From Fibrobacter sp. (GTDB taxonomy: Bacteria; Fibrobacterota; Chitinivibrionia; Chitinivibrionales; Chitinispirillaceae): a stretch of DNA of 32,147 bases. Made by a program: the position numbers and the translations under genes. The notes under the pieces were generated by a model that had not been told where the DNA came from, made no database searches, and was given only the letters and a program-made list of their open reading frames with translations. Positions within the stretch are counted from its first letter, which is position 1. Every line of letters begins with the position of its first letter. The stretch lies in assembly GCA_012523595.1 (NCBI GenBank), contig JAAYIG010000063.1:1-32147 (forward strand), given 5' to 3'. Shown piece by piece: positions 2,333 to 24,024 of the stretch.

Positions 2333-5300
2333 ATGATCGATCTGTCGGCCCGGAAGATTGTTTCTGCAAAGGTAATTTTATTGTTTTTAAATCTCCGCAA
2401 TCTCCCTCTTATTAAGGCTGCAATAACAGTAGTATCCCTTGTTTTTTACTCTTTTGCAGCAAAACTCAATGTGGATAAAGATGAATTGGGATCGTACACC
2501 ACCATATCAGACGCTTTATCCGATTCCAATGCTGGTGATACGATCTGGATTATGGGTTCCGACAGCTATGATGAGACCTGGCCAAGCAATATCGACTGGA
2601 TCGTACATATAATGGGGGCATTTTATTCTCCGGACAGTTTCCCTTCTGTAAGGCTTACAGGAGAGCAGTGGGAGTTTCACTGGATAAACACCTCCGGCAC
2701 AACCAGAATTGAAAGAGTTATCCTGGACAACTGCGACAGGATCAATCTGACCAACGCAGGAAGAATACTGATTATTGATAAGTGCGTGATTAAAAACTTT
2801 TCCGCTGATGTGTTTTTACTAAAAGATAACGCGTCCAATTATCTGTCTATCACTAATTCTATTTTCCACAATAACGCAACCATATTTCCCGCTATTCCTT
2901 ACAAAAACATCAACGGCCCATATGGAAGCGTGTTTAACTGCACGTTTTATAACAACACGACTGTTCAGGCAGAGGATAACATTGATACTGTACAAATCAG
3001 CGCTGGAAAATTTATTAACATTACCAACTGCATTTTTAGTGGAAATACCACTATTCTGGTTGATGACGATCTGAAAAGCGCTTACACTTACAATCTACTT
3101 CCAACCTCAGAATCCGGCTGGGGTACAGGATCTGTTTATAGTGATAATCCAAGATTCATTAATTCGACTCCCACGTTACCATCTCATTTCAATATTCAAT
3201 CCAGTTCGCCTGCCAGAGAAGCGGGTACATTTACAGGTGCCCCGGCAGTGGATATTCGCGGTGTCAGCCGTACGGGGGCCTGTGATATAGGAGCCTATGA
3301 GTATCCAGCCGCCGGTGGTAGAGCGGATTACACCTGGGACGTAAGCACATCTGGAGGAATTCAGGCTGATAGCGGTACCTGGGGAACAAATAATTACTGG
3401 ACACTTTCCAGTGGAGGGGGGACATCTCTGGTCGCCTGGCCGGGAGCAGGGAATAGTGCGACTTTCGCAGGTGCCAATGGAGATTATACAATAAATGTCA
3501 ATGGAACCCAGATTGTGGATAGTATTTCATTCCTCTATAATGGTTATTACTTAAAAGGCGGTGTGATTAACCTTGGTTCAAAAAGTGGAATTTACGTGGC
3601 AAGCGGCAGAACGGCAAGAATTGGTTCCGTTATAGCCGGTATTGCAGGTATAAAGATATATGGTGCAAACGGTGAGTTAAGGCTGGAGGGTAACAACACC
3701 TTTTCCGGTGCATCAACGATTTTCAGTGGAAAGCCCAAACTGATTCATCCCAATTCTCTTGGAAGCACAAGCGGAGGAACCACCATAATCACTGGTGCCT
3801 GTGTTCAACTCTCAGGAAAAACGACTTTTGCTCCAGAGCAATTGTTTATCAACGGAACCGGAACCGGGAACGGAGTTGTAAGGACCCCTGGAGACGGGAT
3901 AAATGATACTGTCACCTGGTCCGGTAAATTGACAATGCAAAGTTCAAGTTCAATTGGCGCTACAGAAGCAGCAGACATATTGACAATTTCCGGAGTCATT
4001 GAAGGCGCGTTTCAATTGACATCCGTTGGTCCGGGAACAAAAATTCTCTCCGGTGTTAACACATTTTCGGGAGGCCTTGTCATAGCTGAAGGTATAACAA
4101 AAGCCGGTAATGGACAAGCACTTGGAAGTTTCGGAAATACAATTACCATTTCATCAGGTGCTGCTCTCGATATCAACGGGTACAATTTACAAGGATACAC
4201 TCAAAATATTGTCATTAACGGGCAGGTGGATGCAAATACCGGTGCTATTATAAATACGGCGAGTGGAGAGCAGTTGAACGCGATACGTCAGATATCCCTT
4301 GGAAGTAATGCGTCCATAGGAAACAATGGCGGAAGGTTCGATATCGGGAGAGGATATACAGGTGCTGTGCGCGTGACAGGTAATAATCATACTCTTACCA
4401 AGGTGGGAAACAATTTTGTAGCTCTTTTGGCTGATGCCACTACACTTGCGGGATTGATAATAAACGGAGGACAGATATCTCTGGAATCCAATGCTGCAGC
4501 AGGAAATGCACCAATAACAATAAACAACGGTGCAATCCTGTCTTCATGGGGAAACAGGACATTTACGAATAATATAACTATCAACAATGGGGGACAGCTC
4601 AATTCGCCCAGCAGCAACTCATACACCACGGTACACAACGGTAACATTTCCCTGTCCGGAAACACTGTAATGCATAATGATGCAGCCAATACCATGACAA
4701 TAGGCGGGGTGATAGACGGAACCGGAAACCTTACAAAAACAGGCGCAAATGGAACTATAATCCTCTCCAATACCAATACCTACACAGGATCAATAACTGT
4801 ATCCGCAGGTACACTTATTGTCAATGGAGCAACCAGTGCATCAAGCGCGATGAATGTAAGCAGCGGAGCGAATCTTGGCGGAACAGGAAATGTTGCAGGC
4901 ACGGTGAACATTGCAGGGAACGGTATAATCAGTCCCGGCCACGGCGGGGCGGGAACTCTGAGAACCGGTACTCTCAACCTGAACAATACATCTGTTCTGA
5001 ACTATGAACTTGGCGCTTCCCGTGATAGTATCAGGGTAAATGGGAATCTTACACTCGACGGGCAGCTTAACATAACCGCTATTGCCGGTTTTGGAGTCGG
5101 CAACTACACTTTGATGACCTGCAGCGGTACTATTACAAACAATACGTTGATTGTCAATAATGCCCCGTCCGGATATATTTACTCCATCTCTGTAACAGCA
5201 GGCTCTGTCATTTTGAAAGTTTCGGCTGCTCCTCAGGATACACTTATTCTCAGGTATAAATTCGATGAAAGCAGCGGATCTGTGGTTTATGATTCATCCG

Positions 5301-8300
5301 GTTTTGGAAATGATGGTACTGCTATCAATAATCCTTCATTTATTACAGGTTTCAGCGGAAACTCCATAGCGCTCGATGGCAGCAACGATTATGTACAGAT
5401 CCCATCCGGAATTGTAAACAGTTGTGAAGACATAACAGTCTGCACCTGGATAAGGCTGGAAACGATAAGTGACTGGACAAGGATATTTGACTTCGGCAAC
5501 AGTTACACAACCGGTTATATGTTCCTGGCGCCCACAGGGGGATCGTTGAGGTTTGCTATTACCAAAACATCCAGCGGTAGTGAACAGAAAGTTGATGCTC
5601 CGATGTTCTCAGTCAATGTCTGGAAACATGTGGCAGTCAGAATAAAAGGCGATTCCGCCCAGATTTATATTGATGGAGTTGCAGCAGCAACAAATGCCGC
5701 TGTAACAAACAATCCCTCTGATCTGGGAAGTACCACTTATAATTACATCGGTAAATCGCAATATGCAGATCCTTACCTTGACGGAGTGGTTGAAGATTTC
5801 CGAATCTACAGTTATGCTCTTACACCGCAAAATATAGCAAGTATCTATAATTCCACAAGACCAGTTTACTTCACATGGGATTCTTCGTCATCTGCCGGAT
5901 ATCAGGCAGCAAACGGGACCTGGGGAACTGATAATTACTGGAGTCCCGATGGTTATGTGCTGATGTCCTGGCCGGGAGCAGGGAACAGCGCAATATTTGC
6001 GGGCGCGGATGGTACCTATGAAATTACCGTAAATGGAACACAGAATGTTGACAGTATAGCATTTCTCAATTCCGGATATATCCTGAACGGTGGAACACTG
6101 AATTTCGGATCTAAAAATGCCATATATCTGGCTAATGGAAAGAGTGCCACAATCAACTCTGTGATTTCCGGAACAGGAGGAATGAACTTTTCCACTCCGG
6201 GTGGAACTATCTCAACACTCAATCTGGGGGGTGAAAACAGTTACAGTGGCGTAACTACTATCAGATACCGTGTAAGGTTGAATGTGATGACTCTTGCCAA
6301 TGGTGGGTCAAACAGCAGTATCGGTTCTGCTGGTTCAGCGGCTGCAAATCTGGTGATCGATGGAGGACAATTGCGGACTATCGGTGGTGCTGTAAGCACA
6401 AACCGGCTCTTTACTGTCACGGATTTGGGAGGTTATTTATACTCAAACGCCAGCGGTCCGACAAATTTCACCGGTACAGGTTCCATCGAGTTTCCCGGAA
6501 CCGGGAGTCGCACATTGGAAATAGGGGGCATTTACAGTGGCTCAAATATATTCGCTCCGGTAATTGGAAACGGTGCCGGTACTACTTTAATTCGAAAGAC
6601 CGGAAGTACCAGCACATGGATCCTTACAGGCAATAATACCTATACTGGAACGACTTCGATACAGGGTGGTACTCTGCAGATAGGAAACGGTGGCACGAGC
6701 GGAAGTATAGCGGGAAATGTGGTCAATGATGACAATCTGGTGTTTAACAGATCAGACAGTTATATCTATTCCGGAGTCATTTCAGGTACCGGTACAGTAA
6801 ATCAGGCCGGGTCCGGAACTCTGATATTTACAGGCGCAAATACCTTTACCGGTGCCGCTACTGTAAGTGCAGGTACTTTGCAGATCGGCAATGGCGGAAC
6901 CACCGGAAGTCTCACCAGTGATATCACAAATAATGGTACACTGGTGTTCAACCGCTCCAATAATTACAATTACAACGGAGTGATATCCGGCAACGGAAGT
7001 GTCAGGAAGGCGGGTAGCGGAACTCTTACCTTGTCAGGCACTCATACTTATACAGGTGCAACAAATGTTACCGCCGGCACACTGAACGTGACCGGTTCTC
7101 TGGCTCAAGAGAGCGCTGTTACTGTAAGCGGTACCCTGGCCGGGAACGGAACAGTTGCCGGAGCAGTAAATGCCGGCGGGGGAGCAATATCTCCGGGTAA
7201 TAACGGGGCAGGAACTCTTTCAACAGGCCCCTTGACACTTAACAGTTCATCGGTTCTCAATTTCGAACTTGGTACATCCCGGGACAGTATCAAAGTCAAT
7301 GGTGATCTTACTCTTGACGGGACTTTAAATGTTTCTGCTCTTTCCGGCTTCGGGTTGGGCTCCTATACCCTCATAACCTGTACTGGAACCCTGACCAACA
7401 ATATCCTTTCCATGGGCAAAATGCCGGAAGAATATTCGTATGTTGTCAGCGTCGCGGAAAATTCGGTGGTTCTTACTGTGGAACGTGCTGCTTCTCTGAA
7501 ACCAGTCACAGTGGTACAGTCAACACCAAGGTGCTCGGTTTACACCGATGACTGGACAATCGTATTTGACAATAGTGCAGGCGGAGGTATCACTGCTCTG
7601 ACTGATTCCGCACATGGAAAATCAAGAGGCCAGGGTAATCAGATTGGTGCAGGGCAGAATCTTTACTATTTCTACTATGATGGTGAGAGCTCCAAGACAA
7701 ACGGAAAAGGCACCTGGTCAGTTCTCAAAGCAGAGAACTTTTACACCATCATACGCCAGAGCGGCACTCTCGCCGGGCTGTCTTATACAACCGATTACAC
7801 TGTCCATGGTTCAGGAAAAATTTACATCAAAACTACTCTCAGCAATACAGGCGGCAATATCTCAGGCAAGACGGTGAGGTGTGTAGTCGAACGCAGGGCA
7901 GTTCCCGCTATGCGTGCTTTGAGAGGAGATGACAATGCATGGCAGTGTCCATATTTATTGCTGTCAAGTGATTCGGCAAAGCAGAATGATATTCTTTTGT
8001 CCATTAAGGACCTGTGGAGTACATCAAATGGTGCAGCAAATTCCGCTACCGGGTTCTATACCGATGCGGGAAGCGGCTATACAGGATATGAGCTTTCGAA
8101 TGCTTTTTCCCTTAATGCTGGTCAAAAACAGGTTTGGGAATACATGCTTGATTTTGTACATCATTTCTGGGATGATACAGCCAATGCCCGGAGAAGCAGT
8201 GATGATTACAGGAATCCTGACAGCCTGGAGATGATTTCCGGTACCCTGTTGTTTGAGAAAGCCTGGGAGAGACAGTTAAGGGGACACTGGAAAATGGATG

Positions 8301-11065
8301 AGGGTTCTGGTGATACCTTAAGGGATAATTCCGGAAACAATCACCATGCAAAAACCACCGGTACCTGGACTGATGGAAGATGGGGGGGCGGGATTCGGCT
8401 TAACGGGGCACAAAACGCTACTGTTCCGGATAACTCCGATTTTGATGGGACCGACTTTTTTACTGTAATGGGTTGGGTAAAAGCAAACAACGGAACCTTC
8501 ACAAACAGTGCGTGGATTGCCGGTAAACATAACGGAAGCAATGGATGGAAATTGACAGGTAATGGTTCGGATCAGCTCGTTCTAACTTGCAACGGGACTG
8601 CCATTACGGGTACGCGGGATGTTGCTGATGGTTCCTGGCATCATGTGGCTGCCTGTTTTTCACCAAGCAAGGTGATATTATATGTTGACGGGAGGCTGGA
8701 CAAAATCAGCACCGGATCTTATTCTGTGACAGAAAACAACTCTGATCTGCTTATAGGTGCCGGTCTGACGGGGGATCTTGATGATGTGAGATACTGTCGT
8801 GATTACATTTCCGAAAACTCCCTGAAAGCTATCTATCAGCAGGGTTTCCGCTCTTCAGAAGGCTTTTATGAACTCAGGGCAGACAACAACAACACTGTAC
8901 ATTTTAAAATCGATGGAGCGGACATAAGCAGGTGTTTTCCTGTTTTCCATATCAACAATTACTGGGCAGAATCAAAACCAAAAGCCGGATGTGTGGTTCT
9001 TAACGGTACTGCCCTTGTTGAAAACACAGATTATTACGCGGTTTTTGATAATCAGAACAATACCCTGACTATAGGACTGAACAAAATTATCTCAATGGAT
9101 CAGACCCATCTTTACATAGATGATGGTTACAGTGCCGGATACCAGATGGCAGAGGAAACACGAAAGATGAGCTGGGGGATAGATAACCAGGGCAGCTACC
9201 AGCATTTCTGGGTGAAGAATTTCTCAGGCAGCAGTTTTGGTGATGAAAATTCCGGTCAGTGGTATCTCAACTGGAAAATGAGTACAGAGGGAAACAGCAA
9301 GGATGGAGAGATCTGGTATTATGGAAGTTCAGTTAACAATCCAAACTCTTCTGTTGATACCTCAGACACCAATACCAACATGGTTCCCGGTTATGACAAT
9401 TACTACGATAGCTGGGGATATGTATGCCTGAATATAGGCAGCGGCTATCCAAAGACCTCCTACAATGTATCCAATGCGTTTACCTATGCAGTAGAGGAAA
9501 GTTCGGATGTAAGAGTTGTATTGTGTGTAAATGAGAGGCAGGTCGATAATGGATCATCGTTCAATATAAAAACCCGCTGGACAATCTATCCTACAGGCCA
9601 GATATTCAGGTGGGACAGCATTTATTCAATGAGCGCTGCTCCCTCGAAGGTCTATATCGGTGCATTCATGGACGATCAGGAATATGCCACTGTTTATACA
9701 AACACTCTGAGGAAAAGAAGTGGGTTGATCTATAGCCAGACTTTTCCGGATTTTGCCTTCAGTTGGTTGTCGATGAAAAATGCAAGCGGTTTTCAGGCTG
9801 AGCCTTTTGGCAGCGACACTATTATGCCTGATTTGTCTGAGTATCGTGCAGGAATGGATTTCGGTGATGCCAGTGCCACGGAGGTCTGGAATTCTGCATC
9901 GGTTCAGACAGTATTCTATCTGGATATTCAACACTCTAATATGAGCAATAGTTTTATCGATTCTGTCAGCAATTCAGTTCAGTGTATTGGTACCGGTGGA
10001 GGGGCAGCTCTGCTGATGAAAAGGGGAGTATTGCTTTCCGGAGATGATGCTACAGAGGGAGATCTCAATGGAGACGGTTTTAACGAGCGTGAGGGGGCGT
10101 ATATAATTCAGGCGGATAACAATACAGTCAACTTTATACTTCCTGCGAGGAATGATACCTGCAGGTTCAATCCCGCTTTCCGCCTCACTGGCTACTATGT
10201 ATTGGAGAAACCACAGTACATATTCCTCTATAATTCATCCGGTGACACCATCCCGGTGATTGAGGGGTATAAGTATAATGCATATCACAAGAAATCAACA
10301 AAAGAGCTTGTGATTCAGTTCGACAGTGTGTTCTGTGATTCTGTGGGTATATATATATCGGCTGACAGGACCCTGGCGGTAAATTTATCGGGATTCTGGG
10401 CTAAAGCAGGAAACAGTTGCGATACACTGGGCTGGAGCACCGGGAGTGAGCTGGAGAATCTTGGGTACTATCTGTACCGAAGAATAAAACCGGAGTTTTT
10501 TGACAGCCTCAGCAAAGCAGCAGATAGTGATGATGGTAATGGTGTTGTTACTCTGCTTAAAGAAAGAGTGCTGAGCTGGAAAGACACAAGCTGGGTTCTG
10601 CTTAACAATGAGATAATCCCCGGAGCACCCGCAGGTGTATCACACGGATCGAGAAATTATGTCTGGATTGACAAATCTGTGCACAATGGTGTTCTGTACG
10701 AATACAAACTTGTTTCAGTCGACTTCAGAAATACAACAGAGGAGTTCGGACCGGTTGAAGCAATGCCTTTCGGGCCTGTAAGACATTTCAACCTGGGGCC
10801 CAATTTTCCTAATCCGTTCCGCGGTACTACTGTTATCAGATTCGAACTACCAATAGAGAGCAGGGTAACACTGAATATCTATAACCTTCAGGGTCGCCTT
10901 GTGAGGCGATTATTAACTCCTGAGAAGGTGCTTAGTGCAAATGCTCATCAGGTAATCTGGGACGGAAAGAATGATATAGGGCGGGAACTGGAAGCCGGAC
11001 CTTACATTTACCGCATCACCTCAGGAAAATTCTCAAAATCGAAAATCATGGTAAAACTGGAGTAG
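2333..11065 (+). CDS. Giant modular surface protein A (beta-helix, PATR repeats, LamG, T9SS-type tail)
   Basis: This predicted exported adhesin-like protein has 2910 residues. A signal peptide ends near A43. Residues 45-325 are beta-helix-like with repeated 'ITNSIFHNN'/'ITNCIFSGN' coils, closing with a choice-of-anchor-Q-like 'SSPAREAGTFTGAPAVDIRG ... DIGAYEY'. Cassette 1 (about 333-967) and cassette 2 (about 1178-1720) each have a 'WDxSxxxGxQAxxGTWGT' head, autotransporter-associated (PATR) beta-strand repeats and a cap ending in 'LDGxLN...GFGxGxYTL'. A LamG/ConA-like domain (about 968-1175) joins them. The tail (1721-2910) holds an unassigned possible beta-sandwich (1721-1978), a second LamG domain (1979-2175), an unassigned region, an Fn3-like domain (about 2690-2816, 'LENLGYYLYRR') and a T9SS/FlgD-type C-terminal domain (2818-2910). 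No autotransporter barrel is present. ATG 2333 has no clear ribosome site; TTG 2381 has one and gives a cleaner signal peptide. The ligand is unknown. Confidence 0.92.
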   Translation: MIDLSARKIVSAKVILLFLNLRNLPLIKAAITVVSLVFYSFAAKLNVDKDELGSYTTISDALSDSNAGDTIWIMGSDSYDETWPSNIDWIVHIMGAFYSPDSFPSVRLTGEQWEFHWINTSGTTRIERVILDNCDRINLTNAGRILIIDKCVIKNFSADVFLLKDNASNYLSITNSIFHNNATIFPAIPYKNINGPYGSVFNCTFYNNTTVQAEDNIDTVQISAGKFINITNCIFSGNTTILVDDDLKSAYTYNLLPTSESGWGTGSVYSDNPRFINSTPTLPSHFNIQSSSPAREAGTFTGAPAVDIRGVSRTGACDIGAYEYPAAGGRADYTWDVSTSGGIQADSGTWGTNNYWTLSSGGGTSLVAWPGAGNSATFAGANGDYTINVNGTQIVDSISFLYNGYYLKGGVINLGSKSGIYVASGRTARIGSVIAGIAGIKIYGANGELRLEGNNTFSGASTIFSGKPKLIHPNSLGSTSGGTTIITGACVQLSGKTTFAPEQLFINGTGTGNGVVRTPGDGINDTVTWSGKLTMQSSSSIGATEAADILTISGVIEGAFQLTSVGPGTKILSGVNTFSGGLVIAEGITKAGNGQALGSFGNTITISSGAALDINGYNLQGYTQNIVINGQVDANTGAIINTASGEQLNAIRQISLGSNASIGNNGGRFDIGRGYTGAVRVTGNNHTLTKVGNNFVALLADATTLAGLIINGGQISLESNAAAGNAPITINNGAILSSWGNRTFTNNITINNGGQLNSPSSNSYTTVHNGNISLSGNTVMHNDAANTMTIGGVIDGTGNLTKTGANGTIILSNTNTYTGSITVSAGTLIVNGATSASSAMNVSSGANLGGTGNVAGTVNIAGNGIISPGHGGAGTLRTGTLNLNNTSVLNYELGASRDSIRVNGNLTLDGQLNITAIAGFGVGNYTLMTCSGTITNNTLIVNNAPSGYIYSISVTAGSVILKVSAAPQDTLILRYKFDESSGSVVYDSSGFGNDGTAINNPSFITGFSGNSIALDGSNDYVQIPSGIVNSCEDITVCTWIRLETISDWTRIFDFGNSYTTGYMFLAPTGGSLRFAITKTSSGSEQKVDAPMFSVNVWKHVAVRIKGDSAQIYIDGVAAATNAAVTNNPSDLGSTTYNYIGKSQYADPYLDGVVEDFRIYSYALTPQNIASIYNSTRPVYFTWDSSSSAGYQAANGTWGTDNYWSPDGYVLMSWPGAGNSAIFAGADGTYEITVNGTQNVDSIAFLNSGYILNGGTLNFGSKNAIYLANGKSATINSVISGTGGMNFSTPGGTISTLNLGGENSYSGVTTIRYRVRLNVMTLANGGSNSSIGSAGSAAANLVIDGGQLRTIGGAVSTNRLFTVTDLGGYLYSNASGPTNFTGTGSIEFPGTGSRTLEIGGIYSGSNIFAPVIGNGAGTTLIRKTGSTSTWILTGNNTYTGTTSIQGGTLQIGNGGTSGSIAGNVVNDDNLVFNRSDSYIYSGVISGTGTVNQAGSGTLIFTGANTFTGAATVSAGTLQIGNGGTTGSLTSDITNNGTLVFNRSNNYNYNGVISGNGSVRKAGSGTLTLSGTHTYTGATNVTAGTLNVTGSLAQESAVTVSGTLAGNGTVAGAVNAGGGAISPGNNGAGTLSTGPLTLNSSSVLNFELGTSRDSIKVNGDLTLDGTLNVSALSGFGLGSYTLITCTGTLTNNILSMGKMPEEYSYVVSVAENSVVLTVERAASLKPVTVVQSTPRCSVYTDDWTIVFDNSAGGGITALTDSAHGKSRGQGNQIGAGQNLYYFYYDGESSKTNGKGTWSVLKAENFYTIIRQSGTLAGLSYTTDYTVHGSGKIYIKTTLSNTGGNISGKTVRCVVERRAVPAMRALRGDDNAWQCPYLLLSSDSAKQNDILLSIKDLWSTSNGAANSATGFYTDAGSGYTGYELSNAFSLNAGQKQVWEYMLDFVHHFWDDTANARRSSDDYRNPDSLEMISGTLLFEKAWERQLRGHWKMDEGSGDTLRDNSGNNHHAKTTGTWTDGRWGGGIRLNGAQNATVPDNSDFDGTDFFTVMGWVKANNGTFTNSAWIAGKHNGSNGWKLTGNGSDQLVLTCNGTAITGTRDVADGSWHHVAACFSPSKVILYVDGRLDKISTGSYSVTENNSDLLIGAGLTGDLDDVRYCRDYISENSLKAIYQQGFRSSEGFYELRADNNNTVHFKIDGADISRCFPVFHINNYWAESKPKAGCVVLNGTALVENTDYYAVFDNQNNTLTIGLNKIISMDQTHLYIDDGYSAGYQMAEETRKMSWGIDNQGSYQHFWVKNFSGSSFGDENSGQWYLNWKMSTEGNSKDGEIWYYGSSVNNPNSSVDTSDTNTNMVPGYDNYYDSWGYVCLNIGSGYPKTSYNVSNAFTYAVEESSDVRVVLCVNERQVDNGSSFNIKTRWTIYPTGQIFRWDSIYSMSAAPSKVYIGAFMDDQEYATVYTNTLRKRSGLIYSQTFPDFAFSWLSMKNASGFQAEPFGSDTIMPDLSEYRAGMDFGDASATEVWNSASVQTVFYLDIQHSNMSNSFIDSVSNSVQCIGTGGGAALLMKRGVLLSGDDATEGDLNGDGFNEREGAYIIQADNNTVNFILPARNDTCRFNPAFRLTGYYVLEKPQYIFLYNSSGDTIPVIEGYKYNAYHKKSTKELVIQFDSVFCDSVGIYISADRTLAVNLSGFWAKAGNSCDTLGWSTGSELENLGYYLYRRIKPEFFDSLSKAADSDDGNGVVTLLKERVLSWKDTSWVLLNNEIIPGAPAGVSHGSRNYVWIDKSVHNGVLYEYKLVSVDFRNTTEEFGPVEAMPFGPVRHFNLGPNFPNPFRGTTVIRFELPIESRVTLNIYNLQGRLVRRLLTPEKVLSANAHQVIWDGKNDIGRELEAGPYIYRITSGKFSKSKIMVKLE
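2368..2383 (+). promoter_or_regulatory. Ribosome binding site favouring a TTG start for protein A
   Basis: AAAGG (2368-2372) stands 8 nt before the in-frame TTG at 2381 (codon 17 of the longer frame). Starting there gives an N-terminus of FLNLRNLPLIKAA followed by a hydrophobic core and FAA, a textbook signal peptide. ATG at 2333 has only CCCC before it and would lie about 13 nt from the predicted transcription start. Confidence 0.45.
6668..7075 (+). repeat. Two tandem 68-codon PATR units in gene A
   Basis: Copies begin at 6668 and 6872, and the next GTL motif starts at 7076, so both are exactly 204 bp. The pattern is GTLQIGNGGT(S/T)GS, then LVFNRS, VISG and SGTL, ending near NT(F/Y)TGA. Protein identity is high but codons differ, so these are old duplications under protein-level selection. 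Confidence 0.85.
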
Positions 11066-11319: not shown

Positions 11320-11341
11320 ATAGACAAAAATTAAAATCAGG
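11220..11341 (+). repeat. 12-bp direct repeat ATTAAAATCAGG, two copies 110 bp apart
   Basis: Copies lie at 11220-11231 and 11330-11341. The second fills most of the spacer of the gene B promoter and ends 2 bp before its -10 hexamer. The spacing of 110 bp is close to a whole number of helical turns, as would suit a looping regulator, but A+T-rich repeats of this length can also arise by chance. Confidence 0.4.
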
Positions 11342-11349
11342 CGTATAAT
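11321..11349 (+). promoter_or_regulatory. Promoter of the second giant surface-protein gene
   Basis: TAGACA (11321-11326), 17 bp and TATAAT (11344-11349) repeat the core found upstream of gene A. Transcription would start near 11356, giving a leader of about 33 nt to ATG 11389. This implies that gene B is expressed on its own and not only by readthrough from gene A. Confidence 0.65.
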
Positions 11350-11388
11350 GTTATATATAATGAGAATTTTATGGCATGATGTTCTGAA

Positions 11389-14300: not shown

Positions 14301-17300
14301 AGTAACCCTTAATTCCAACATTTCCGGTGATGCAAGGTCTGCAATTGAAGTAGGCAATGGCAATACTGCAACATGGAACGGTACTGTGATATTGGCCGGT
14401 AATAACAGAACGCAATTGTATGCCAATGGTACTATGAATATTAACGGGCCAGTCAATGGCAGTTGCCGCCATCTCTTGCTCAGAGGTTACGGTACCGGAA
14501 ATATCAACTCCAGTATAAATATCGGAAACACAACTCTTTTAAAAACAGATGGTTCTACCTGGAATATTAACACCACAGGAAATACCTGGGGAAATACCCA
14601 GATAGCAGTTGGCACACTGAAACTGGGGGTAACAAATGCAATGCCATCTGCAACCATTATTACCATGGGGCAGAATGATGCATTAAGTGCCGCTTTCGAC
14701 CTTAACGGAAAAAATCAGACCATTTCCGGGCTGATGGATGGAGGTTCAACAGGGGGAACCAAGAGAATAACTAACAGCGGAACATCTGCGGCCACTTTGA
14801 CAATTAATAACACTTCCGATTTTACATACAGCTACCTGATCCAAAACAGCAGCAATCCGCTAAATCTTATAAAGAGCGGAAACGGTACTCTTACTCTGGC
14901 AGGAACCAATACCTATACAGGTACGACAACTGTTTCAGGTGGAACACTCAATGTAACCGGTTCCCTTGCATCGGGAAGTGCTGTAACCGTTACAGGTACT
15001 CTGGCTGGAAATGGAACTGTAGCCGGAACTGTAAACGCAAGTAATGGCACAATAGCTCCCGGAAATAATGGAACAGGCACACTCAATACCGGTGCTCTCA
15101 TTCTCAACGGCTCTTCAAAATTGAATTTTGAACTGGGTACTGCAAGGGACAGTATCAAAGTTACAGGAAATCTTACCCTTGACGGAACATTGAATGTTAC
15201 TGAAATGGCAGGGTTTGGTCCCGGAACCTATTGCATCATTACATATTCTGGAACCCTCATCGATCAGGGACTCCAAACCGGCACTATGCCCGCTGATTAC
15301 AATTACAGTATTGAAGCAAGCAAGGGATCTGTAAGGCTGATTGTCAGTCCGTTGTCATCGGATTATTTCTGGGATGTTTCTGCTGATGCTGGATTTCAGG
15401 CTGGAGATGGTACCTGGGGAACAGATGATTACTGGTCCACAGATGGAACGACTCTGGTTTCCTGGCCGGGAGCGGGTTATTCGGCAACTTTCGCCGGTCA
15501 AGACGGTACTTACACTGTGACGGTCAGCGGCACCCAGAATGTAGACAGCATTGCGATACTGAATTCAGGTTATACTCTTACCGGGGGAACCATCCATTTC
15601 GGCACTAAGAATGGTATTTACATGATTGCCGGCAAGAGCGCAACCATAAGCTCGGTTATAACAGGTACGGGAGGACTGAAGCTATACAGTCCGGGAACAG
15701 GAAGCCGTGCCACACTTAATTTAGAAGGTTCTAACACTTATACTGGCGTAACAAACATCAGTCAGTATGTACGGTTGAATGTGCCCATTCTTGCAAACGG
15801 AGGATTGAACAGCAGCATTGGCCGATCTTCAAATGCCGCATCAAATCTTATTATCGATGGTGGACAGTTGCGGCATACAGGAGCGGCTGCAAGCACCGAT
15901 CGTCTCTTTACATTAACAGATAAAGGCGGATATGTTTTAGCCAGTGGAAGCGGACCTCTTAATTTTACCAATACCGATTCGATTGCTGTTACAGGAGCTG
16001 GAACACCTGTTCTGGAAATAGGTGGAGTATATGAGGGAGCAAGTGTTTTTGCACCAGTCATAGTTGATGGAGCCGGTACTGTGTCGGTTTTAAAGAGTGG
16101 TCCTGTCAGTACCTGGATTTTGACCGGAAATAACACCTACACAGGTGTAACAACTGTAAGAGAAGGCACGTTGCAGGTAGGAAACGGCGGAACAAGCGGA
16201 AGCATTACCGGCGATATTGTCAACAGAGCCACACTTGTTTTCAACAGATCAAATGCATATTCATATTACGGGATCATATCAGACACCGGTGCTGTCATAC
16301 AGTCCGGATCAGGTACTCTCACTCTGGAAGGTATAAACACCTACACCGGGAAGACTGTCATTAATTCAGGTACCTTGTCTGTTGCATATCTTGACAACGG
16401 AGGTACAAACAGCAATATCGGAGCATCAGCGGCCACAGCGGGGAATCTTGTGTTTCGCGGCGGAACGCTTGCATACACAGGGGCTGGAAATGGCACAAAC
16501 AGATTATTTACACTTGACGTAAATGGCGGTACAATCGATGCCTCAGGTACAGGTACTCTCAGGTTTACTGCAACTGGCACAATGGCGTTTGAGGGAACAG
16601 GTGCAAGAACACTGATCCTGAGTGGAAGCAACACTGGCGATAACAGATTGAATATCGCAATCAATAATGATGGAGGAGGTAATGCCACTTCCATCATTAA
16701 AACAGGCACCGGAAAATGGATATTGAATGGAAATAACGGGGCTACAGGGACAGTTACAATAAGCAATGGAACACTGCAGATTGGAAACGGGGGAACTACC
16801 GGAAGTATTGCAGGAAATGTTGTAAATGGCGGAGTATTGATTTTCAACCGGTCTGATGCCCTCTCTTACAGCGGTAATATCTCCAGTACCGGTTCTGTTA
16901 CCAAGACAGGAACCGGTACATTGACACTTTCCGGGAATAATACTTTCTCTGGTGGAGTTACGATCAGTGCCGGTACACTCAGAGCAGGAAGCACATCTGC
17001 TTTAGGACATTATGACAACACAATTACAGTCAGTTCCGGTGCTGCACTGGATATAAACGGATATAACCTGCAGAACTACACTAAGGAGATAATCCTGAAC
17101 GGGCAGGTTGACGCCAGCACTGGAGCCCTGATAAACACCGGTGCAGTGCAGCAGAATGCTATTGGTAAAGTCAGCCTGGGAAGCAACACATCGATTGGAA
17201 ATGATGGCGGCAATGCCGTTGAAATCGGCAGAGGAATTGGCGGTACAGTACTCAATGGAAACGGATTTACGCTGACAAAAATCGGAACCAATGATCTGAA

Positions 17301-20300
17301 ACTGGCTGGAACAGGATCCGGGCTGGCGTCTGTGATAGTAAATGCCGGAAGATTGAGCCAGGAAACAGCAGATGCATTCGGGAATGCTCCTGTCATAGTC
17401 AATGGCGGTGCAGTACTGTCTTCATATTACAGCATGACAGTAGCAAACAATATAACTTTGAATGACCAGAGTACACTGCGGTCATCTTCAAACGCTGCCC
17501 ATGTAACCGAGTACACCGGTACAATAACAACCTCCGGAAATGATACACTCCTGAATAATGGAACCAATACTGTCACTCTGAGCGGTGTTATAGAAGGAAC
17601 CGGAACAATAATAAAGAAAAATGCCGGAATATTCAGGCTTTCAAACACCGGTAACACTTTCAGCGGTGGATTGACAGTCCTGAGCGGAACCCTTCAGATT
17701 GGTGCTGATGAAGTAATTCCTGATGGAGTGGGGAAAGGCAGTGTAAGCGTAACCGGTGGTACACTGGATCTCAACAGCCACAGTGAAACCATTAATGGAC
17801 TGAGTGGCAGTGGAACCATTACCAGCAGTACCGCCGGTGCATCCACATTGGCAATCGGCGGCAATAATGCCACATCATCCTTTGACGGAGTAATCCAGAA
17901 CGGAGCCGGTACTGTTGCGCTTACCAAAACCGGAACCGGAACACTGACACTTGCAGGTGTAAACACCTATACCGGTGCCACTTTAGTTTCTGCCGGGACT
18001 CTCAATGTAACAGGTTCAATCGCATCAGGCAGTGCGGTTACAGTCAGTGCGACTCTCAGTGGTGATGGTACTGTTGCTGGAACGGTTAATGTCTCAAATG
18101 GAACCATTATTCCTGGAAATGGGGGGACAGGGACACTCTCTACAGGCACATTGACTCTGAACGGCTCTTCAACTTTAAACTATGAAATCGGTACATCATC
18201 GGATCTGATAGCAATAACTGGTGACCTTGTACTTGACGGAAAATTGAATGTTGCCCCGGTTGAGGGATTTGGCATAGGGACATATATTATCATGACTTAC
18301 TCCGGTTCTCTTACCAACCAGGTATTGGAGATTAATACGGCACCTGAAGGATACAACTACGGTATTACTGCAGAGGATGGCAAAGTTTATTTACATGTAA
18401 TCTCCACATCGACTGACTGGTTCTGGGATGTATCTACAGATGCATCATTCCAGGCTGGAGACGGAACCTGGGGAATTGACAATTACTGGACAACAGACGG
18501 CACTCATCTGTTCCCCTGGCTGAGAGGAGATTTTTCTGCGACATTTGCCGGAAGTGACAGTACCTGGACTGTTACAGTCAATGGAACACAGAATGTGGAC
18601 AGTCTGGCATTTTTAAATTCCGGCTATACTCTGACTGACGGTACGTTAAATTTCGGTACAAAGCCGGGAGTTCTTGTCGCAGCAGGAAAGAACGCCACCA
18701 TAAATTCCATAATATCAGGTTCTCCCGGTTTGTCAAAATACGGAACCGGTATTCTTGTTCTTGGCGGATCTAACACATATACAGGTCCAACTGTCATTAA
18801 TGCAGGAACTATAAGCACACCTGTGATTTCCGATGGAGGCAGCAGCAGCGGTATCGGAGCATCTGCCAACACTGCAGATAATCTGGTAATACTGGGGGCA
18901 ACGCTAGTTTATACCGGTACCGGCCACAGCTCAGACCGTCTCTTTACCCTTGGCACAGCCGGCGGTACAATCAGCGCCTCCGGATCAGGTGCTTTGAATT
19001 TGTCAAATACGGGTAGTATGGCGTTCAGCGGGGCAGGAACACGTACTTTAATTCTCGGTGGAACCAATAGCGGGAACAATATACTCGCCGCTGAAATTAC
19101 AAATGAGGGGGCAAATGCCACGTCTGTTACCAAGTCAGGTGATGGAAAGTGGATTTTGACCGGTAATAACACTGCCACAGGCACAGTGACAATAAGCGGA
19201 GGCACACTCCAGATCGGCAATGCAGGGACTTCTGGAAGCATTGCAGGAAATGTCGCCAACAGTGGAACACTGGTGTTTAACAGATCTGACAATTATACAT
19301 ACAGTAAGGTCATTTCCGGTGCGGGTGCTGTTATTCAGGCCGGATCAGCAACACTGATATTTGATGGCGATAACGCATATACAGGTGTTACAACAATCAG
19401 TGACGGAACTTTGCAGATAGGTGATGATGGTACAACCGGAAGCATAGCCGGAGATGTGGTCAATAATGGATCTCTGGTATTTTACCGTTCCGATGAGTAC
19501 TCTTACTCTGGAATCATTTCCGGAACAGGAACAGTACATAAAAACGGAGCTGCCAGACTGATACTGACAGGCACAAATGCCTATTCCGGAGCAACAGTGA
19601 TAAATAGTGGTACTCTTTCTGTAAATGTTCTTGCTGATGGGGACTCAGCCAGTAATATCGGTGCCGCTGCAGCTACAGCCGATAGGCTGATAATCAATGG
19701 CGGCACTCTTGAATATACCGGTGCCGGCTCGACAAGTAACCGCCTCTTTACAATTGGAACCGGAGTCTCCGGTGCAGCTATCCTGGCATCAGGAACAGGA
19801 GAATTGAATCTCAATGGAACCGGCTCTCTTGCATTTACCGGAAATGGATCCCGGACACTGACTCTTGGCGGCAGCAACTCCGGAAATAACTCCCTTGCTG
19901 TTGTAATAGGAGATCAGGGAACAAATGCTACTTCAGTCACCAAAACCGGAACCGGGAAATGGATTTTAACAGGAGAAAACACATATACCGGAATCACCAG
20001 CATTTCTGCCGGAACGCTCGTTATAGATGGATCTACTCATGCCGGAAGTGCTGTAAATGTCGCTGCCGGAGCTACTCTGGCAGGATCCGGAATGGCCGGA
20101 GGAAATGTTACAGTCGCAAATAATGGAATCATAGCCCCCGGAACCGGCACAGGGACCCTGTATACTGGAAGTCTTGTACTTAACAATGCATCAGTACTGA
20201 GTTTCGATCTTGGAACTGCACGTGACAGCATCAGAGTCGTCGGTAACCTTACCCTCGATGGTATACTTAACATTACTGAAACTGCCGGGTTCGGTCCTGG

Positions 20301-23300
20301 CACTTACACTTTAATAAAGTATACAGACAGCCTGGTTGCTGATAACGGTCTGGAGATAGGCTCTGTTCCTGATCAGGGTTACATCTACTCTGTAACTGTC
20401 AATGAAGGAGCAAAGTCGGTAATTCTTTCAGTAGTTCCGGGTTTGTCTCTTAAGCCGATAACTGTTGTAGAGACTGCACAACGCTGCTCGGTCTACACAG
20501 ATGACTGGACCCTTGTCTTTGATAATCAATACGGAGGTGGAATCGTAACTTTGACCGATGCAGCACACGGAGAATCGAGCGGGCAGGGGAATCAGCTTGG
20601 TAATGGACAAAACCTCTACTACTTCTTCTTTGACGGTGATAACTCCAAGAGCGATGGAAAGGGAACCTGGTCGGTATTGACAAAAGGAGGCTTTTTCGCC
20701 ACCATACGCCAGAGTGGAATTCTCAAAGGACTACCTTACATAACAGATTATACTGTTCATGGATCAGGGAAAATCTATATCAGAACCTCCCTGGAGAATA
20801 CTGGGGGCGATGTATCCGGAAAAACAGTCCGTTGTGTTGTTGAGCGCAGGAATGTGGCTGCGATGTCATATCACAAAGGAAATGACAATGCCAGCCTCTC
20901 TCCTTATGTTCTGATATCATCCGATTCTGCTAAGCAGAATGATATCCTTCTTTCCATCAAGGATCTATGGAACACATCACACGGCGCAGCCGACAGCGCC
21001 ACCGGCTTCTACAGTGCAGCCGGAAGCTACGGTTATGAAAACAACAATCTCTCTATCTCCACAGGACAGAAGCAGGTCTGGGAATTCATGCTCGATTTCG
21101 TGCATGATGCCTGGAATGATACTGCCGGAGTAGGAGGACATTGTGATGATTACCGCAGCCCCGACAGTCTCGAGATGATTGCCGGAACTCTTCTTATGGA
21201 GAAAGCCTGGGAGAAGCAGTTACGCGGGCACTGGCAGATGGATGAAGGTACTGGTGATACCATACGGGATAACTCCGGGAACAATCGTCATGCCCATACT
21301 ACAAGTCAGAACTGGACTAATGGAAGATGGGGTGGCGCACTGAGTTTTAATGGAGTAAACAGTGCAGTGTATCCGGACCACTCTGATTTTGATGGAACCG
21401 ATTTCTTCACTGTCATGGCATGGATAAAGTGCAATAACGGTACCTTTACTTCTGGTTCTGTGATAGCTGGAAAATACACAGGAGGTAGCGGTTGGAAACT
21501 GACCGGCAGCGGGTCTGACAGGGTCACGCTTACCTGCAATGGAACGAATATAACCGGAACGCGTGATGTTGGTGATGGAATGTGGCATCATGTGGCCGCA
21601 TGTTACTCCAAGTCAAAGGTGATGCTCTATGTTGACGGTCGCATTGATATGATCAGCACCGGCAGCTTCAGTGTGTCCGCCAACGATGAGGAACTGGTGA
21701 TTGGGAAGGGGTTGACAGGGACTCTTGACGATGTGCGCTTTTACCACGATTATATCTCGGAAAATACTCTCAAAGCCATCTGTCAGCAGGGATTCCGGTC
21801 ATCTGAGGGAATGTATGAACTCAGGGCTGATAACAACAGCACCATCTGCCTTAAAATTGACGGTGGTTCGATCAGGAGAAACTTCCCCGTGTTCATTATT
21901 AACAACTACTGGGCGGAATCCAAACCCGAAGCAGGTTGTGTTGTGCTTAATGGAACACCTCTGATAGAGAATTCCGATTATTTTGCGCACTTCGATAATC
22001 CGCATAATCAGTTGATCATTGGCCTTAACAAGATGATCACAACTGATGAGGCCAGATTATATATCGACAATGATTTTGAGGGCGGAGCTCTCATGACCGG
22101 GGCAACAAAGAAGATGAACTGGGGGATAGACAATGCAGGAGACTACAAGCACTTCTGGGTAAAAAATTTCTCTGAGAATACTTTCGGAAGTGACAGCTCC
22201 AGACAGTGGTATCTTAACTGGAAAATGAGTACTGAGGGTAATAGCAAGGATGGTGAGTTGTGGTTTATGTCAAGCTCATATTCCAACCCCGGAGATCAGG
22301 TGGATACAGCCGCCAATATAAACATCATTCCTGGTGCTGATGGAGACAATGATTCATGGGTGACATGGGCATTTAATATCGGCGGGCAGTTACCAAGAAG
22401 CAGTAAAGATGTCTCTGGTGCGTTTAACTGGGCAGTTGAGGAAAGCTCCTCTGTCAGAATAAGAATTAGAATTGATAACAGGACTGTATCTCTTGGTGGA
22501 AATTCTTTTGATATCAAGACCAGATGGACCATTTACCCGACTGGTCAGATCTTCAGATGGGACAGTATCAGTAATTTCTCTGCCGGGCCTTCCCAGGTGC
22601 ATCTGCTCAATGTTTTCGATGACAATGCCGGATTCTCATCGGTCAGCAAATCGGAAGCCGGCAAGAGGGCCGTATTGATGAATTCTCAGAATTATCCTGA
22701 TTTCGCTTCTGCATGGCTTTCCATGAAAAACAACAGCGGATATCAGGCTGAACCTTTCGATAATGACACCATAGACGAGTGCAGCACAGGAGAAAGGGCA
22801 GGTTTTAAATATGTCGATGAAACCACAAGTCCCTTGACCAAATGGATATCAGCCCCGATACAGACTGTACAGTATCTGGATATCCAGCGCCCTGAGATGA
22901 GTCCGGGATACAGGGATTCTGTATGTATAGGTGTACAGCACACAGGTTTGGGAAACGGAGACGCTCTGATAGTTTCAAAGGGAACACTGCTGTCTGGAGA
23001 ACTTGCTACAGACGGAGACCTCAACAAGGATGGCTTTAATGAAACAGAGGGTGCCTATGTTATTGCTGCTGAAAACAATGCGGTAAATTTCCAGCTTCCT
23101 GCAAATAATGATACATGCAGGTTCTATCCGGTTTTCAGGTTGACTGATTATTTTGCCTCATCAAAACCGCAATACATCTTCCTCTATAACTCTTCCGGCG
23201 ATACCATTCCTTTATTAGATGGTTATCAGTATAATGCTTACCTTAACAGGGCGAAAAGAGAACTGGTGATACAGATAGACAGTGTATTCTGCAGTACTGT

Positions 23301-24024
23301 TGGAATTTTTATCTCTGCAGACAGGACTCTGGCAGTTACACTGTCAAGTTTCTGGGCTAAAGGAGGCCAGAACTGTGACACATTAGGGTGGAGAACGGAA
23401 AGCGAACTGGAAAATCTGGGGTATTACATCTACAGGAGAATCAAGCCGGAATTCTACGACAGCCTGAGCAATCTTGCGAAAAAGAAAGAAGCCAATGAAG
23501 GTGCTGTGGCTTTGCTTAAAGGTAAAGCCATCAGCAGTAAGGATACAGGATGGGTTCTTTTAAATAATGAGATTATTCCCGGTGCTCCGTCGGGAGTTTC
23601 ACATGCTTCCCGTAATTATATGTGGATAGACAAGGCTGTTTTGAGTGAAGTCCTTTATGAATACAAGCTTGTTTCGGTTGACTATAGAAATGTTGCTGAA
23701 GAATTTGGTCCTGTAGAAGCCATGCCTTTACCACTGATCAGGGTTTTCCGCCTGGGAACAAATTTCCCCAACCCATTCAGGGCTTTTACGGTCATTCGAT
23801 TCGAGCTGCCGGTAGAATGCAGAGTATCACTTAACATCTATGACCTCCAGGGACGGCTTGTGCGAAAGCTTATTACTCCCGATAAACCTCTGGCAGCAAA
23901 TTATCATCAGGTGATCTGGGATGGTAAAAATGATATGGGTCGTAAGATTCAAGCCGGTCCCTATATCTATCGCCTGACAGCCAGAAAATTCACAAAGTCG
24001 ATGGTGATGATAAAAGTGGAGTAG
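11389..24024 (+). CDS. Giant modular surface protein B (paralogue of A, three PATR cassettes)
   Basis: This 4211-residue paralogue of protein A is likewise predicted to be exported. A hydrophobic stretch at about 44-60 (MVFICLSIIFSF...QA) would be the signal peptide, after an unusually long n-region. ATG 11419 (codon 11) has GGGA 8 nt before it and is an alternative start. Residues of about 80-365 are beta-helix-like, closing with a 'TTTGAPATDIAGQARGG' motif. Cassettes 1 (about 371-1324), 2 (1325-2342) and 3 (2343-3019) each start with 'FWDVSxxxxxQAGxGTWG'. The tail (3020-4211) is co-linear with A: possible beta-sandwich, LamG (about 3279-3464), unassigned region, Fn3-like domain (about 3988-4116) and T9SS/FlgD-type C-terminal domain (4120-4211). 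The LamG that joins the cassettes in A is absent. Five copies of a 68- or 69-residue unit occur against two in A. The 3' end overlaps the convergent SPASM remnant by 35 bp. The binding target is unknown. Confidence 0.92.
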   Translation: MNCGLAGIKQMPEDVSNLKTIAAKGNSGTLKCLLFRENTFLPTMVFICLSIIFSFSDIQAGGYSDDHSDSGNVIDTISAGTVRTVDADGGADYTSLDSALNAIAGGLDIDTIKFVGSDVDTFTWSTYLSQSIGTITFKGTKNDPDSFPVINHTNHGTYNFFNATNGRFERVVITGSYGFNMGQSAKTHEFLNCVFRDNTSTATDPYIIHVEGAAALRLENCLFEGNTCGSVISINPWGGNPALIITNCTFDNNTRVFSADPGGSIANYVFKNNIFSGNTTTFMGNNLRGKTTYSLTSEDIADYGTGCVSNSNPQYHFGNRNKPSDWRIANGSPGDGIGTTTGAPATDIAGQARGGSIDAGCWNSAAPPAKDYFWDVSTSPGIQAGKGTWGTNNYWTIDGTTLVSWPGSGYSAIFGGNDGNYTITVNGTQYVDSITFLNSNYYLTGGTIDLGSKNGIYVESGERGEINSVIAGTAGIKLYGTGELSLSGNNTFTGASVIYEGKPKLIHPNALGATSGATTINSGACIQLSGNTTFAAERLYINGFGTGTGVVRTGIDGINDNAVWQGRITLQGNSSFGASEANDQITITGVVEGAFQLTKAGPGTITLSGTNTFSGGLTVEEGILRSGNSQALGNYGNAITIANGAAIDVNGFDLRGYTQSIVINGQRNGSNGALINSGGEQINAIRKISLGSNASIGGNGNRFDIGRGYSGSVCITGNNHILTKVGSNYMALLADADGLAGVVVNSGTLSLEADAAAGNAPITINNGAILASYENRTFSNNISINDGGTLHSSLYNAYTTVHNGSITLTGNTNIGNPVASTMIISGAIGGTGNVNFTGATGTVILANNNNYSGGTTISSGTLQIGNGGTTGSITGNVTNNGTLRFNRSDDMNFGGVISGTGAVVQSGEGNLTLSGANTYSGLTTVSPLCTLIVAHNTALGTTAGGTVLEAGGGQYSTSLRLANGVTITGETVTLNSNISGDARSAIEVGNGNTATWNGTVILAGNNRTQLYANGTMNINGPVNGSCRHLLLRGYGTGNINSSINIGNTTLLKTDGSTWNINTTGNTWGNTQIAVGTLKLGVTNAMPSATIITMGQNDALSAAFDLNGKNQTISGLMDGGSTGGTKRITNSGTSAATLTINNTSDFTYSYLIQNSSNPLNLIKSGNGTLTLAGTNTYTGTTTVSGGTLNVTGSLASGSAVTVTGTLAGNGTVAGTVNASNGTIAPGNNGTGTLNTGALILNGSSKLNFELGTARDSIKVTGNLTLDGTLNVTEMAGFGPGTYCIITYSGTLIDQGLQTGTMPADYNYSIEASKGSVRLIVSPLSSDYFWDVSADAGFQAGDGTWGTDDYWSTDGTTLVSWPGAGYSATFAGQDGTYTVTVSGTQNVDSIAILNSGYTLTGGTIHFGTKNGIYMIAGKSATISSVITGTGGLKLYSPGTGSRATLNLEGSNTYTGVTNISQYVRLNVPILANGGLNSSIGRSSNAASNLIIDGGQLRHTGAAASTDRLFTLTDKGGYVLASGSGPLNFTNTDSIAVTGAGTPVLEIGGVYEGASVFAPVIVDGAGTVSVLKSGPVSTWILTGNNTYTGVTTVREGTLQVGNGGTSGSITGDIVNRATLVFNRSNAYSYYGIISDTGAVIQSGSGTLTLEGINTYTGKTVINSGTLSVAYLDNGGTNSNIGASAATAGNLVFRGGTLAYTGAGNGTNRLFTLDVNGGTIDASGTGTLRFTATGTMAFEGTGARTLILSGSNTGDNRLNIAINNDGGGNATSIIKTGTGKWILNGNNGATGTVTISNGTLQIGNGGTTGSIAGNVVNGGVLIFNRSDALSYSGNISSTGSVTKTGTGTLTLSGNNTFSGGVTISAGTLRAGSTSALGHYDNTITVSSGAALDINGYNLQNYTKEIILNGQVDASTGALINTGAVQQNAIGKVSLGSNTSIGNDGGNAVEIGRGIGGTVLNGNGFTLTKIGTNDLKLAGTGSGLASVIVNAGRLSQETADAFGNAPVIVNGGAVLSSYYSMTVANNITLNDQSTLRSSSNAAHVTEYTGTITTSGNDTLLNNGTNTVTLSGVIEGTGTIIKKNAGIFRLSNTGNTFSGGLTVLSGTLQIGADEVIPDGVGKGSVSVTGGTLDLNSHSETINGLSGSGTITSSTAGASTLAIGGNNATSSFDGVIQNGAGTVALTKTGTGTLTLAGVNTYTGATLVSAGTLNVTGSIASGSAVTVSATLSGDGTVAGTVNVSNGTIIPGNGGTGTLSTGTLTLNGSSTLNYEIGTSSDLIAITGDLVLDGKLNVAPVEGFGIGTYIIMTYSGSLTNQVLEINTAPEGYNYGITAEDGKVYLHVISTSTDWFWDVSTDASFQAGDGTWGIDNYWTTDGTHLFPWLRGDFSATFAGSDSTWTVTVNGTQNVDSLAFLNSGYTLTDGTLNFGTKPGVLVAAGKNATINSIISGSPGLSKYGTGILVLGGSNTYTGPTVINAGTISTPVISDGGSSSGIGASANTADNLVILGATLVYTGTGHSSDRLFTLGTAGGTISASGSGALNLSNTGSMAFSGAGTRTLILGGTNSGNNILAAEITNEGANATSVTKSGDGKWILTGNNTATGTVTISGGTLQIGNAGTSGSIAGNVANSGTLVFNRSDNYTYSKVISGAGAVIQAGSATLIFDGDNAYTGVTTISDGTLQIGDDGTTGSIAGDVVNNGSLVFYRSDEYSYSGIISGTGTVHKNGAARLILTGTNAYSGATVINSGTLSVNVLADGDSASNIGAAAATADRLIINGGTLEYTGAGSTSNRLFTIGTGVSGAAILASGTGELNLNGTGSLAFTGNGSRTLTLGGSNSGNNSLAVVIGDQGTNATSVTKTGTGKWILTGENTYTGITSISAGTLVIDGSTHAGSAVNVAAGATLAGSGMAGGNVTVANNGIIAPGTGTGTLYTGSLVLNNASVLSFDLGTARDSIRVVGNLTLDGILNITETAGFGPGTYTLIKYTDSLVADNGLEIGSVPDQGYIYSVTVNEGAKSVILSVVPGLSLKPITVVETAQRCSVYTDDWTLVFDNQYGGGIVTLTDAAHGESSGQGNQLGNGQNLYYFFFDGDNSKSDGKGTWSVLTKGGFFATIRQSGILKGLPYITDYTVHGSGKIYIRTSLENTGGDVSGKTVRCVVERRNVAAMSYHKGNDNASLSPYVLISSDSAKQNDILLSIKDLWNTSHGAADSATGFYSAAGSYGYENNNLSISTGQKQVWEFMLDFVHDAWNDTAGVGGHCDDYRSPDSLEMIAGTLLMEKAWEKQLRGHWQMDEGTGDTIRDNSGNNRHAHTTSQNWTNGRWGGALSFNGVNSAVYPDHSDFDGTDFFTVMAWIKCNNGTFTSGSVIAGKYTGGSGWKLTGSGSDRVTLTCNGTNITGTRDVGDGMWHHVAACYSKSKVMLYVDGRIDMISTGSFSVSANDEELVIGKGLTGTLDDVRFYHDYISENTLKAICQQGFRSSEGMYELRADNNSTICLKIDGGSIRRNFPVFIINNYWAESKPEAGCVVLNGTPLIENSDYFAHFDNPHNQLIIGLNKMITTDEARLYIDNDFEGGALMTGATKKMNWGIDNAGDYKHFWVKNFSENTFGSDSSRQWYLNWKMSTEGNSKDGELWFMSSSYSNPGDQVDTAANINIIPGADGDNDSWVTWAFNIGGQLPRSSKDVSGAFNWAVEESSSVRIRIRIDNRTVSLGGNSFDIKTRWTIYPTGQIFRWDSISNFSAGPSQVHLLNVFDDNAGFSSVSKSEAGKRAVLMNSQNYPDFASAWLSMKNNSGYQAEPFDNDTIDECSTGERAGFKYVDETTSPLTKWISAPIQTVQYLDIQRPEMSPGYRDSVCIGVQHTGLGNGDALIVSKGTLLSGELATDGDLNKDGFNETEGAYVIAAENNAVNFQLPANNDTCRFYPVFRLTDYFASSKPQYIFLYNSSGDTIPLLDGYQYNAYLNRAKRELVIQIDSVFCSTVGIFISADRTLAVTLSSFWAKGGQNCDTLGWRTESELENLGYYIYRRIKPEFYDSLSNLAKKKEANEGAVALLKGKAISSKDTGWVLLNNEIIPGAPSGVSHASRNYMWIDKAVLSEVLYEYKLVSVDYRNVAEEFGPVEAMPLPLIRVFRLGTNFPNPFRAFTVIRFELPVECRVSLNIYDLQGRLVRKLITPDKPLAANYHQVIWDGKNDMGRKIQAGPYIYRLTARKFTKSMVMIKVE
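13966..14172 (+). repeat. PATR unit copy 1 in gene B (69 codons)
   Basis: This is the only one of the seven recognised copies that departs from 68 codons, being 207 bp long before the next aligned TL motif. The unit reads GTLQIGNGGTTGSITGN ... FNRSDD ... GVISGTG ... NTYSGLTTVS. Confidence 0.75.
16165..16368 (+). repeat. PATR unit copy 2 in gene B (68 codons)
   Basis: Starts GTLQVGNGGTSGSITGD and ends NTYTGKTVINS. The next GTL motif begins 204 bp downstream at 16369. Confidence 0.8.
16768..16971 (+). repeat. PATR unit copy 3 in gene B (68 codons)
   Basis: Starts GTLQIGNGGTTGSIAGN and ends NTFSGGVTISA. The next GTL motif begins 204 bp downstream at 16972. Confidence 0.8.
19201..19608 (+). repeat. 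PATR unit copies 4 and 5 in gene B, in tandem (68 codons each)
   Basis: Copies begin at 19201 and 19405 and the next GTL motif is at 19609, so both are exactly 204 bp. This mirrors the tandem pair in gene A. Confidence 0.85.

Follow-up and report, generated by a model that had tools for sequence, protein, structure and literature searches.

The closest described systems are a giant T9SS adhesin, PATR-containing autotransporter adhesins and the tailed cargo proteins of Fibrobacter succinogenes. SprB of Flavobacterium johnsoniae is a surface-displayed T9SS motility adhesin of 669 kDa (PMC9127263, PMC7807042), and its tail belongs to type B (PMC12618676). T9SS tails can be species-specific (PMC11285876). 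Autotransporter adhesins of the ShdA and Ag43 class carry PATR repeats in a beta-helical passenger fold and end in a C-terminal beta-barrel. In F. succinogenes, TIGR04183-type tails have been proposed as T9SS signals on the basis of envelope proteomics, and none of the peptides detected by mass spectrometry for the mature proteins overlapped with the tail domain (PMC6851124).

The window analysed here, a stretch of 32,147 nucleotides from Fibrobacter sp. (contig JAAYIG010000063.1), encodes two very large proteins, giant 1 and giant 2, which are probably duplicated, very long, T9SS-exported and surface-anchored solenoid adhesins with carbohydrate-binding capacity. Their predicted export and surface display would liken them to SprB. 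Unlike SprB, which has a type-B tail and the SprF shuttle, they possess type-A/FlgD-like tails, a passenger-type solenoid and LamG domains, and no match to an SprF/PorP-like shuttle gene was found among the neighbouring ORFs in the window. The initial annotation regarded their size as remarkable for a T9SS route; this did not hold, because SprB is itself a T9SS cargo of 669 kDa, albeit with the other type of tail. With the PATR autotransporter adhesins the giants have the repeats and the beta-helical passenger fold in common, but the C-terminal beta-barrel is missing, its place being taken by a conserved base module with a T9SS-type tail. The TIGR04183/BTD-Fpm-1 cargo of F. succinogenes, probably of the same phylum, shares the basic C-terminal T9SS-type domain and a link to polysaccharide use (PMC6851124); the cargo listed consists of single enzymes, whereas the present proteins are non-enzymatic giants. 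The features of the locus are as follows.

2285–2313, + strand: promoter-like site 5' of giant 1 (TAGACA-17-TATAAT, 11/12 consensus; pattern match)
2333–11065, + strand: giant 1, 2910 aa, 309 kDa (ORF and domains)
2333–2464, + strand: predicted signal-peptide region of giant 1, residues 1–44, hydrophobic stretch about 29–43 (sequence and hydropathy)
2465–3304, + strand: N-terminal beta-helix of giant 1, closed by a choice-of-anchor Q domain at residues 286–324 (model)
3374–5240, + strand: solenoid block 1 of giant 1, residues about 348–969 (PATR, opening and passenger-type cap motifs, model, Foldseek)
5375–5839, + strand: first LamG domain of giant 1, residues 1015–1169 (PF13385)
5915–7490, + strand: solenoid block 2 of giant 1, residues about 1195–1719 (PATR repeats)
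7478–11062, + strand: C-terminal module of giant 1, residues 1716–2910, including the second LamG domain and the tail (relatives, alignment, model)
about 8270–8835, + strand: second LamG domain of giant 1, inside the C-terminal module
10805–11056, + strand: T9SS/FlgD-like tail of giant 1 (TIGR04183, 37.3 bits in the genome search, 38.0 alone)
11321–11349, + strand: promoter-like site 5' of giant 2 (the same two hexamers, TAGACA and TATAAT, 11/12 consensus; pattern match)
11389–24024, + strand: giant 2, 4211 aa, 435 kDa, tandem paralogue of giant 1 (ORF and domains)
11389–11571, + strand: predicted signal-peptide region of giant 2, residues 1–61 (sequence and hydropathy)
11641–12540, + strand: N-terminal beta-helix of giant 2, residues about 85–384 (homology to the giant 1 head)
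12547–20470, + strand: three solenoid blocks of giant 2, with 17 PATR stretches in residues 478–2879 (block openings at residues 387, 1341 and 2359)
20434–24021, + strand: C-terminal module of giant 2 (homology to giant 1, alignment of relatives, LamG scan)
about 21358–21765, + strand: LamG domain of giant 2, inside the C-terminal module
23764–24015, + strand: T9SS/FlgD-like tail of giant 2 (TIGR04183, 26.1 bits in the genome search, 27.3 alone)

The coordinates, strand and lengths of both ORFs given in the initial annotation were exact. The genes lie on the same strand, 323 bases apart, and their products are 66% identical across the last 1195 residues and about 52% identical in the head, a degree of sequence similarity that marks them as tandem paralogues resulting from duplication. 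The alignment score of the DNA upstream of the two genes equals that of shuffled controls, and the agreement is limited to the promoter-like hexamers. Both proteins begin with hydrophobic N-terminal segments, from which Sec signal peptides are predicted by hydropathy alone.

The computed domain order of giant 1 is a signal peptide, the N-terminal beta-helix, the first solenoid block, a LamG domain, the second block, and the C-terminal module with its second LamG domain and tail. Giant 2 has three consecutive solenoid blocks as against the two of giant 1, and LamG domains were not detected between them. The PATR repeats already noticed in both proteins were found by the Pfam search in 7 stretches of giant 1 (E=6.5e-32) and 17 of giant 2 (E=7e-82), with concordant matches to TIGR02601 of NCBIfam. 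The choice-of-anchor Q domain of giant 1 matched NF041518 of the same collection with 41.3 bits (cut-off 25). Each block opens with the motif GxWGx(D/N)(N/D)YW followed by WPGxGxSAxFxG, at residues 348 and 1195 of giant 1 and at the three block openings of giant 2 listed above. The closing cap LNxExGTxxDxIxVxGxLxLDGxLN was matched in four of the five blocks, and the last block of giant 2 has a close variant of it; judged by sequence and by partial NCBIfam matches to EprS and ShdA, this cap resembles the C-terminal region of autotransporter passengers.

The beta-helical front that had been proposed for these proteins is backed by structure prediction. The AlphaFold2 model of giant 1 residues 33–1000, obtained with six sequences, is a beta-solenoid with a mean pLDDT of 74, mostly 80–95 at about residues 520–960 and of modest confidence in the first third. 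The best Foldseek matches of this head model were autotransporter passengers, namely EspC, pertactin, IgA1 protease, Hbp, Ag43 and Ssp. Taken over the entire model, the TM-scores are only 0.16–0.29, so these matches support assignment of the head to the passenger fold class rather than relationship to a specific homologue.

The PATR repeats and the passenger-type fold, together with partial NCBIfam matches to the autotransporters EprS and ShdA, might be taken to mean that the giants are split or degenerate type V autotransporters, whose barrel has been lost or is encoded elsewhere. Nevertheless, as the initial annotation had stated for the two proteins, neither giant matches the C-terminal 12-strand autotransporter beta-barrel, and the PF03797 barrel was found nowhere in the genome by a search that was positive in E. 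coli. The same was seen in the phylum: among 21 PATR ORFs with an intact C-terminus, drawn from many genomes and including one from another contig of this genome, the barrel was matched in none at E<=0.01, whereas TIGR04183 was matched in 15, the PorU C-terminal region in 17, and FlgD_ig and Por_Secre_tail in 12 each. A type V origin of this kind is therefore very improbable. Since 15 of the 21 proteins match TIGR04183, 17 match the PorU region and none has the barrel, the combination of PATR with a T9SS/FlgD-type tail is, by these profile matches, the usual one in the phylum, where PATR was present in 27 of the 121 genomes drawn. In another genome of the phylum, a PATR-bearing open frame reaches 8247 codons (G093:C130). 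No account of PATR together with the T9SS was found in the literature searched, which covered few subscription papers; giant T9SS adhesins and PATR passengers are known separately, and no description was found of a passenger-type solenoid joined to a type-A/FlgD-like tail and a conserved base.

This base, absent from the initial annotation, is a conserved C-terminal module that takes up everything behind the solenoid, tail included, and is about 1,195 residues long. Its first 971 residues, used as a query, found matches in 28 of 101 related genomes, some of them to the LamG region only, and strong matches (E below 1e-40) in about 19 of the 101. The alignment of 18 sequences has a mean column identity of 47%, and all 18 carry the TIGR04183 tail at the very C-terminus. 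A scan of genome contigs with this alignment gave mostly tail-only matches, the best being to a Fibrobacteres MAG. The module was modelled with a mean pLDDT of 79, and its pieces other than LamG and the tail have no Pfam family above the cut-off. The top Foldseek ranks of the module are clostridial toxin binding domains, sialidases and an arabinanase; these generic LamG/jelly-roll matches, with a whole-query TM-score of about 0.14, are taken to show the LamG fold and no functional relationship. The LamG modules suggested previously were recovered in both proteins, two in giant 1 and one in giant 2, the latter with 62.5 bits when the region was scanned alone; it is lost in a scan of the whole repetitive protein.

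Related ORFs have a variable solenoid in front and 0 to 11 PATR repeats as counted with a home-made profile; the shortest has 1,957 residues and the longest at least 5,988. A third PATR giant of 2803 aa is encoded on another contig (C46) of the same genome (locus L069:9188-17596, + strand). It aligns with the head of giant 1 at 49.6% over 1,031 columns, but combines this head with Ig and PKD domains and with a FlgD-type tail different from that of giant 1. Because the solenoids vary and the C46 protein shares the head but has another C-terminal half, heads, shafts and bases appear, from the sequence comparisons, to be exchanged as modules.

The tails were scanned as the last 110 residues alone. 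The expected motifs NFPNPFR, FELP, IYNLQGRLVR/IYDLQGRLVR, IWDGKND and AGPYIYR are all present, and the profiles proposed for their examination scored above their cut-offs in giant 1 and giant 2, respectively: TIGR04183 with 38.0 and 27.3 bits (cut-off 23) and Pfam FlgD_ig with 32.5 and 29.4 bits (cut-off 27). No type-B tail (TIGR04131) appeared among the NCBIfam matches of both tails at E<=0.1, and matches to CHU_C in Pfam were weak and below the cut-off. Among solved structures, the C-terminal domain of PorU is the best match of the tail region (E=1.2e-4), followed by FlgD (E=3.9e-4). The tails have a pI of about 10, and so do 98.6% of the 71 terminal tails found elsewhere in the genome. Assignment of the tail as a T9SS type-A/FlgD-like sorting domain is supported by these comparisons, with the reservation that TIGR04183 and FlgD_ig describe related folds and that the fold alone is no proof of a sorting function.

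The genome contains machinery for such tails. SprA (440 bits, cut-off 200) and PorU (538 bits, cut-off 420) were detected as equivalogs, and the PorV family was detected with 192 bits (cut-off 90), several PorV/PorQ-family proteins being above the family cut-off; the T9SS assignment, which the absence of core genes would have overturned, is thus left standing. Matches to the GldL/GldM (PorL/PorM) profiles were weak and below the cut-off in every genome tried. The search for GldM across 12 genomes, Bacteroidota and Ignavibacteria MAGs included, gave nothing above the cut-off and hence provides no working positive control. TIGR04183 has 76 matches in the genome, 68 of them above the cut-off, and 71 of the 74 tails outside the window lie within 20 residues of the stop codon. 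The 64 complete tail carriers outside the window have a median length of 607 residues (largest 1,559), and 57 of them have a hydrophobic N-terminal segment, compared with about 10% of random segments. Judged from sequence, the tail is not a feature of periplasmic proteins only; it forms the terminal domain of dozens of proteins with signal-like N-termini. Giant 1, giant 2 and the C46 protein thus stand out by their size from a predicted T9SS cargo that is otherwise unremarkable. More than 10 tail matches are clustered on each of two other contigs of the genome, C103 and C241 (about 41–46 kb).

It could also be argued that the tail is merely a structural FlgD-like Ig domain and that the giants are periplasmic or released by another route, given that FlgD_ig is above its cut-off in both tails and FlgD structures match the tail region. 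Set against this, TIGR04183 is above its cut-off as well, the PorU tail is a better match than FlgD, the tail stands at the very C-terminus in every aligned relative, and the tail family is widespread in the same genome as SprA, PorU and PorV. We regard this explanation as unlikely. Export by the T9SS, which rests on domain membership and the presence of the core genes, is most likely.

An 818-aa PorV-family protein encoded elsewhere in the genome (contig C205, locus L090:11015-13468, + strand) has a split profile match, to model positions 3–47 and then 45–318. The two halves are separated by some 420 residues with matches to two-component propeller repeats and to part of PorZ. Relatives were found in 60 of the 61 genomes of the phylum searched, and many matches span the full query in a single frame. 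The protein looks like a PorV–PorZ fusion, with a PorZ-like propeller apparently inserted in an early loop of the PorV barrel. If confirmed, this would mean that the T9SS attachment complex has been rearranged throughout the phylum, a finding that may outdo the giants in interest. As a tentative suggestion, in which we place rather limited confidence, the phylum as a whole may have passenger-type beta-helical fibres in which a T9SS tail has replaced the barrel. Such fibres would have arisen by shuffling of modules, some having a head in common but differing in the C-terminal half, others having a base in common but differing in the shaft. The T9SS that serves them would have a PorV-like barrel with a built-in PorZ-like propeller and a motor unrecognised by the PorL/PorM profiles.

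For the two giants, we infer export by the T9SS, surface anchoring, ligand binding and an adhesive role. Sec would carry each protein across the inner membrane by means of its signal peptide. The T9SS would recognise the basic Ig-like tail, the giant would pass through SprA, and PorV and PorU would retain it on the outer surface or attach it there. Outside the cell, the PATR blocks would form a rigid beta-helical shaft, as in autotransporter passengers, shorter or longer depending on whether the paralogue has two or three solenoid blocks. The LamG domains within or behind the shaft, held away from the cell, would offer carbohydrate-binding sites for attachment to polysaccharide, and the conserved C-terminal module would form a base adjoining the membrane. 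Polysaccharide binding is predicted on the basis of the LamG domains and the cellulase/CBM neighbourhood. The exported giants might instead constitute a surface coat, a cell–cell filament or an enzyme scaffold and not bind outside polysaccharide, since LamG domains bind many ligands and the relatives vary greatly in length and head domains. This seems rather doubtful in view of the GH5 cellulase-family enzyme and the CBM_4_9 protein among the neighbours and of the glycan binding by LamG-type domains, such as the homologous domain 4 of AbnA, both of which are circumstantial.

The phylum is known for degraders of cellulose and chitin, for which the way they attach to their substrate is crucial but little explained, and the giants would represent a family of probable substrate-binding proteins there. 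Their architecture indicates that the passenger solenoid is separable from the barrel and deliverable by another export system. Such uncoupling of the solenoid from the barrel would make PATR an unreliable sign of an autotransporter in FCB-group bacteria. The C-terminal module, which has no Pfam name, is a concrete target for structural work.

A gene encoding a response regulator with a GGDEF domain (670–2148, − strand) is oriented away from giant 1, from which it is separated by 185 bases. It is conceivable that c-di-GMP connects it with the adhesins; regulation by this gene is not claimed, since within the regions read it has a close homologue (79%) in the vicinity of a giant only in the same genus, and there in a rearranged order. 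The end of giant 2 is overlapped by a 139-aa antisense ORF (23990–24409, − strand) with a SPASM iron-sulfur domain and without the radical-SAM core, possibly a remnant of a radical-SAM gene. Downstream, a run of genes on the + strand (25036–31623) encodes predicted Mur-ligase/FolC-like, CBM_4_9 and PEGA proteins, a protein with PKD and FGE-sulfatase domains, and the GH5 cellulase-family enzyme, a content that fits polysaccharide use.
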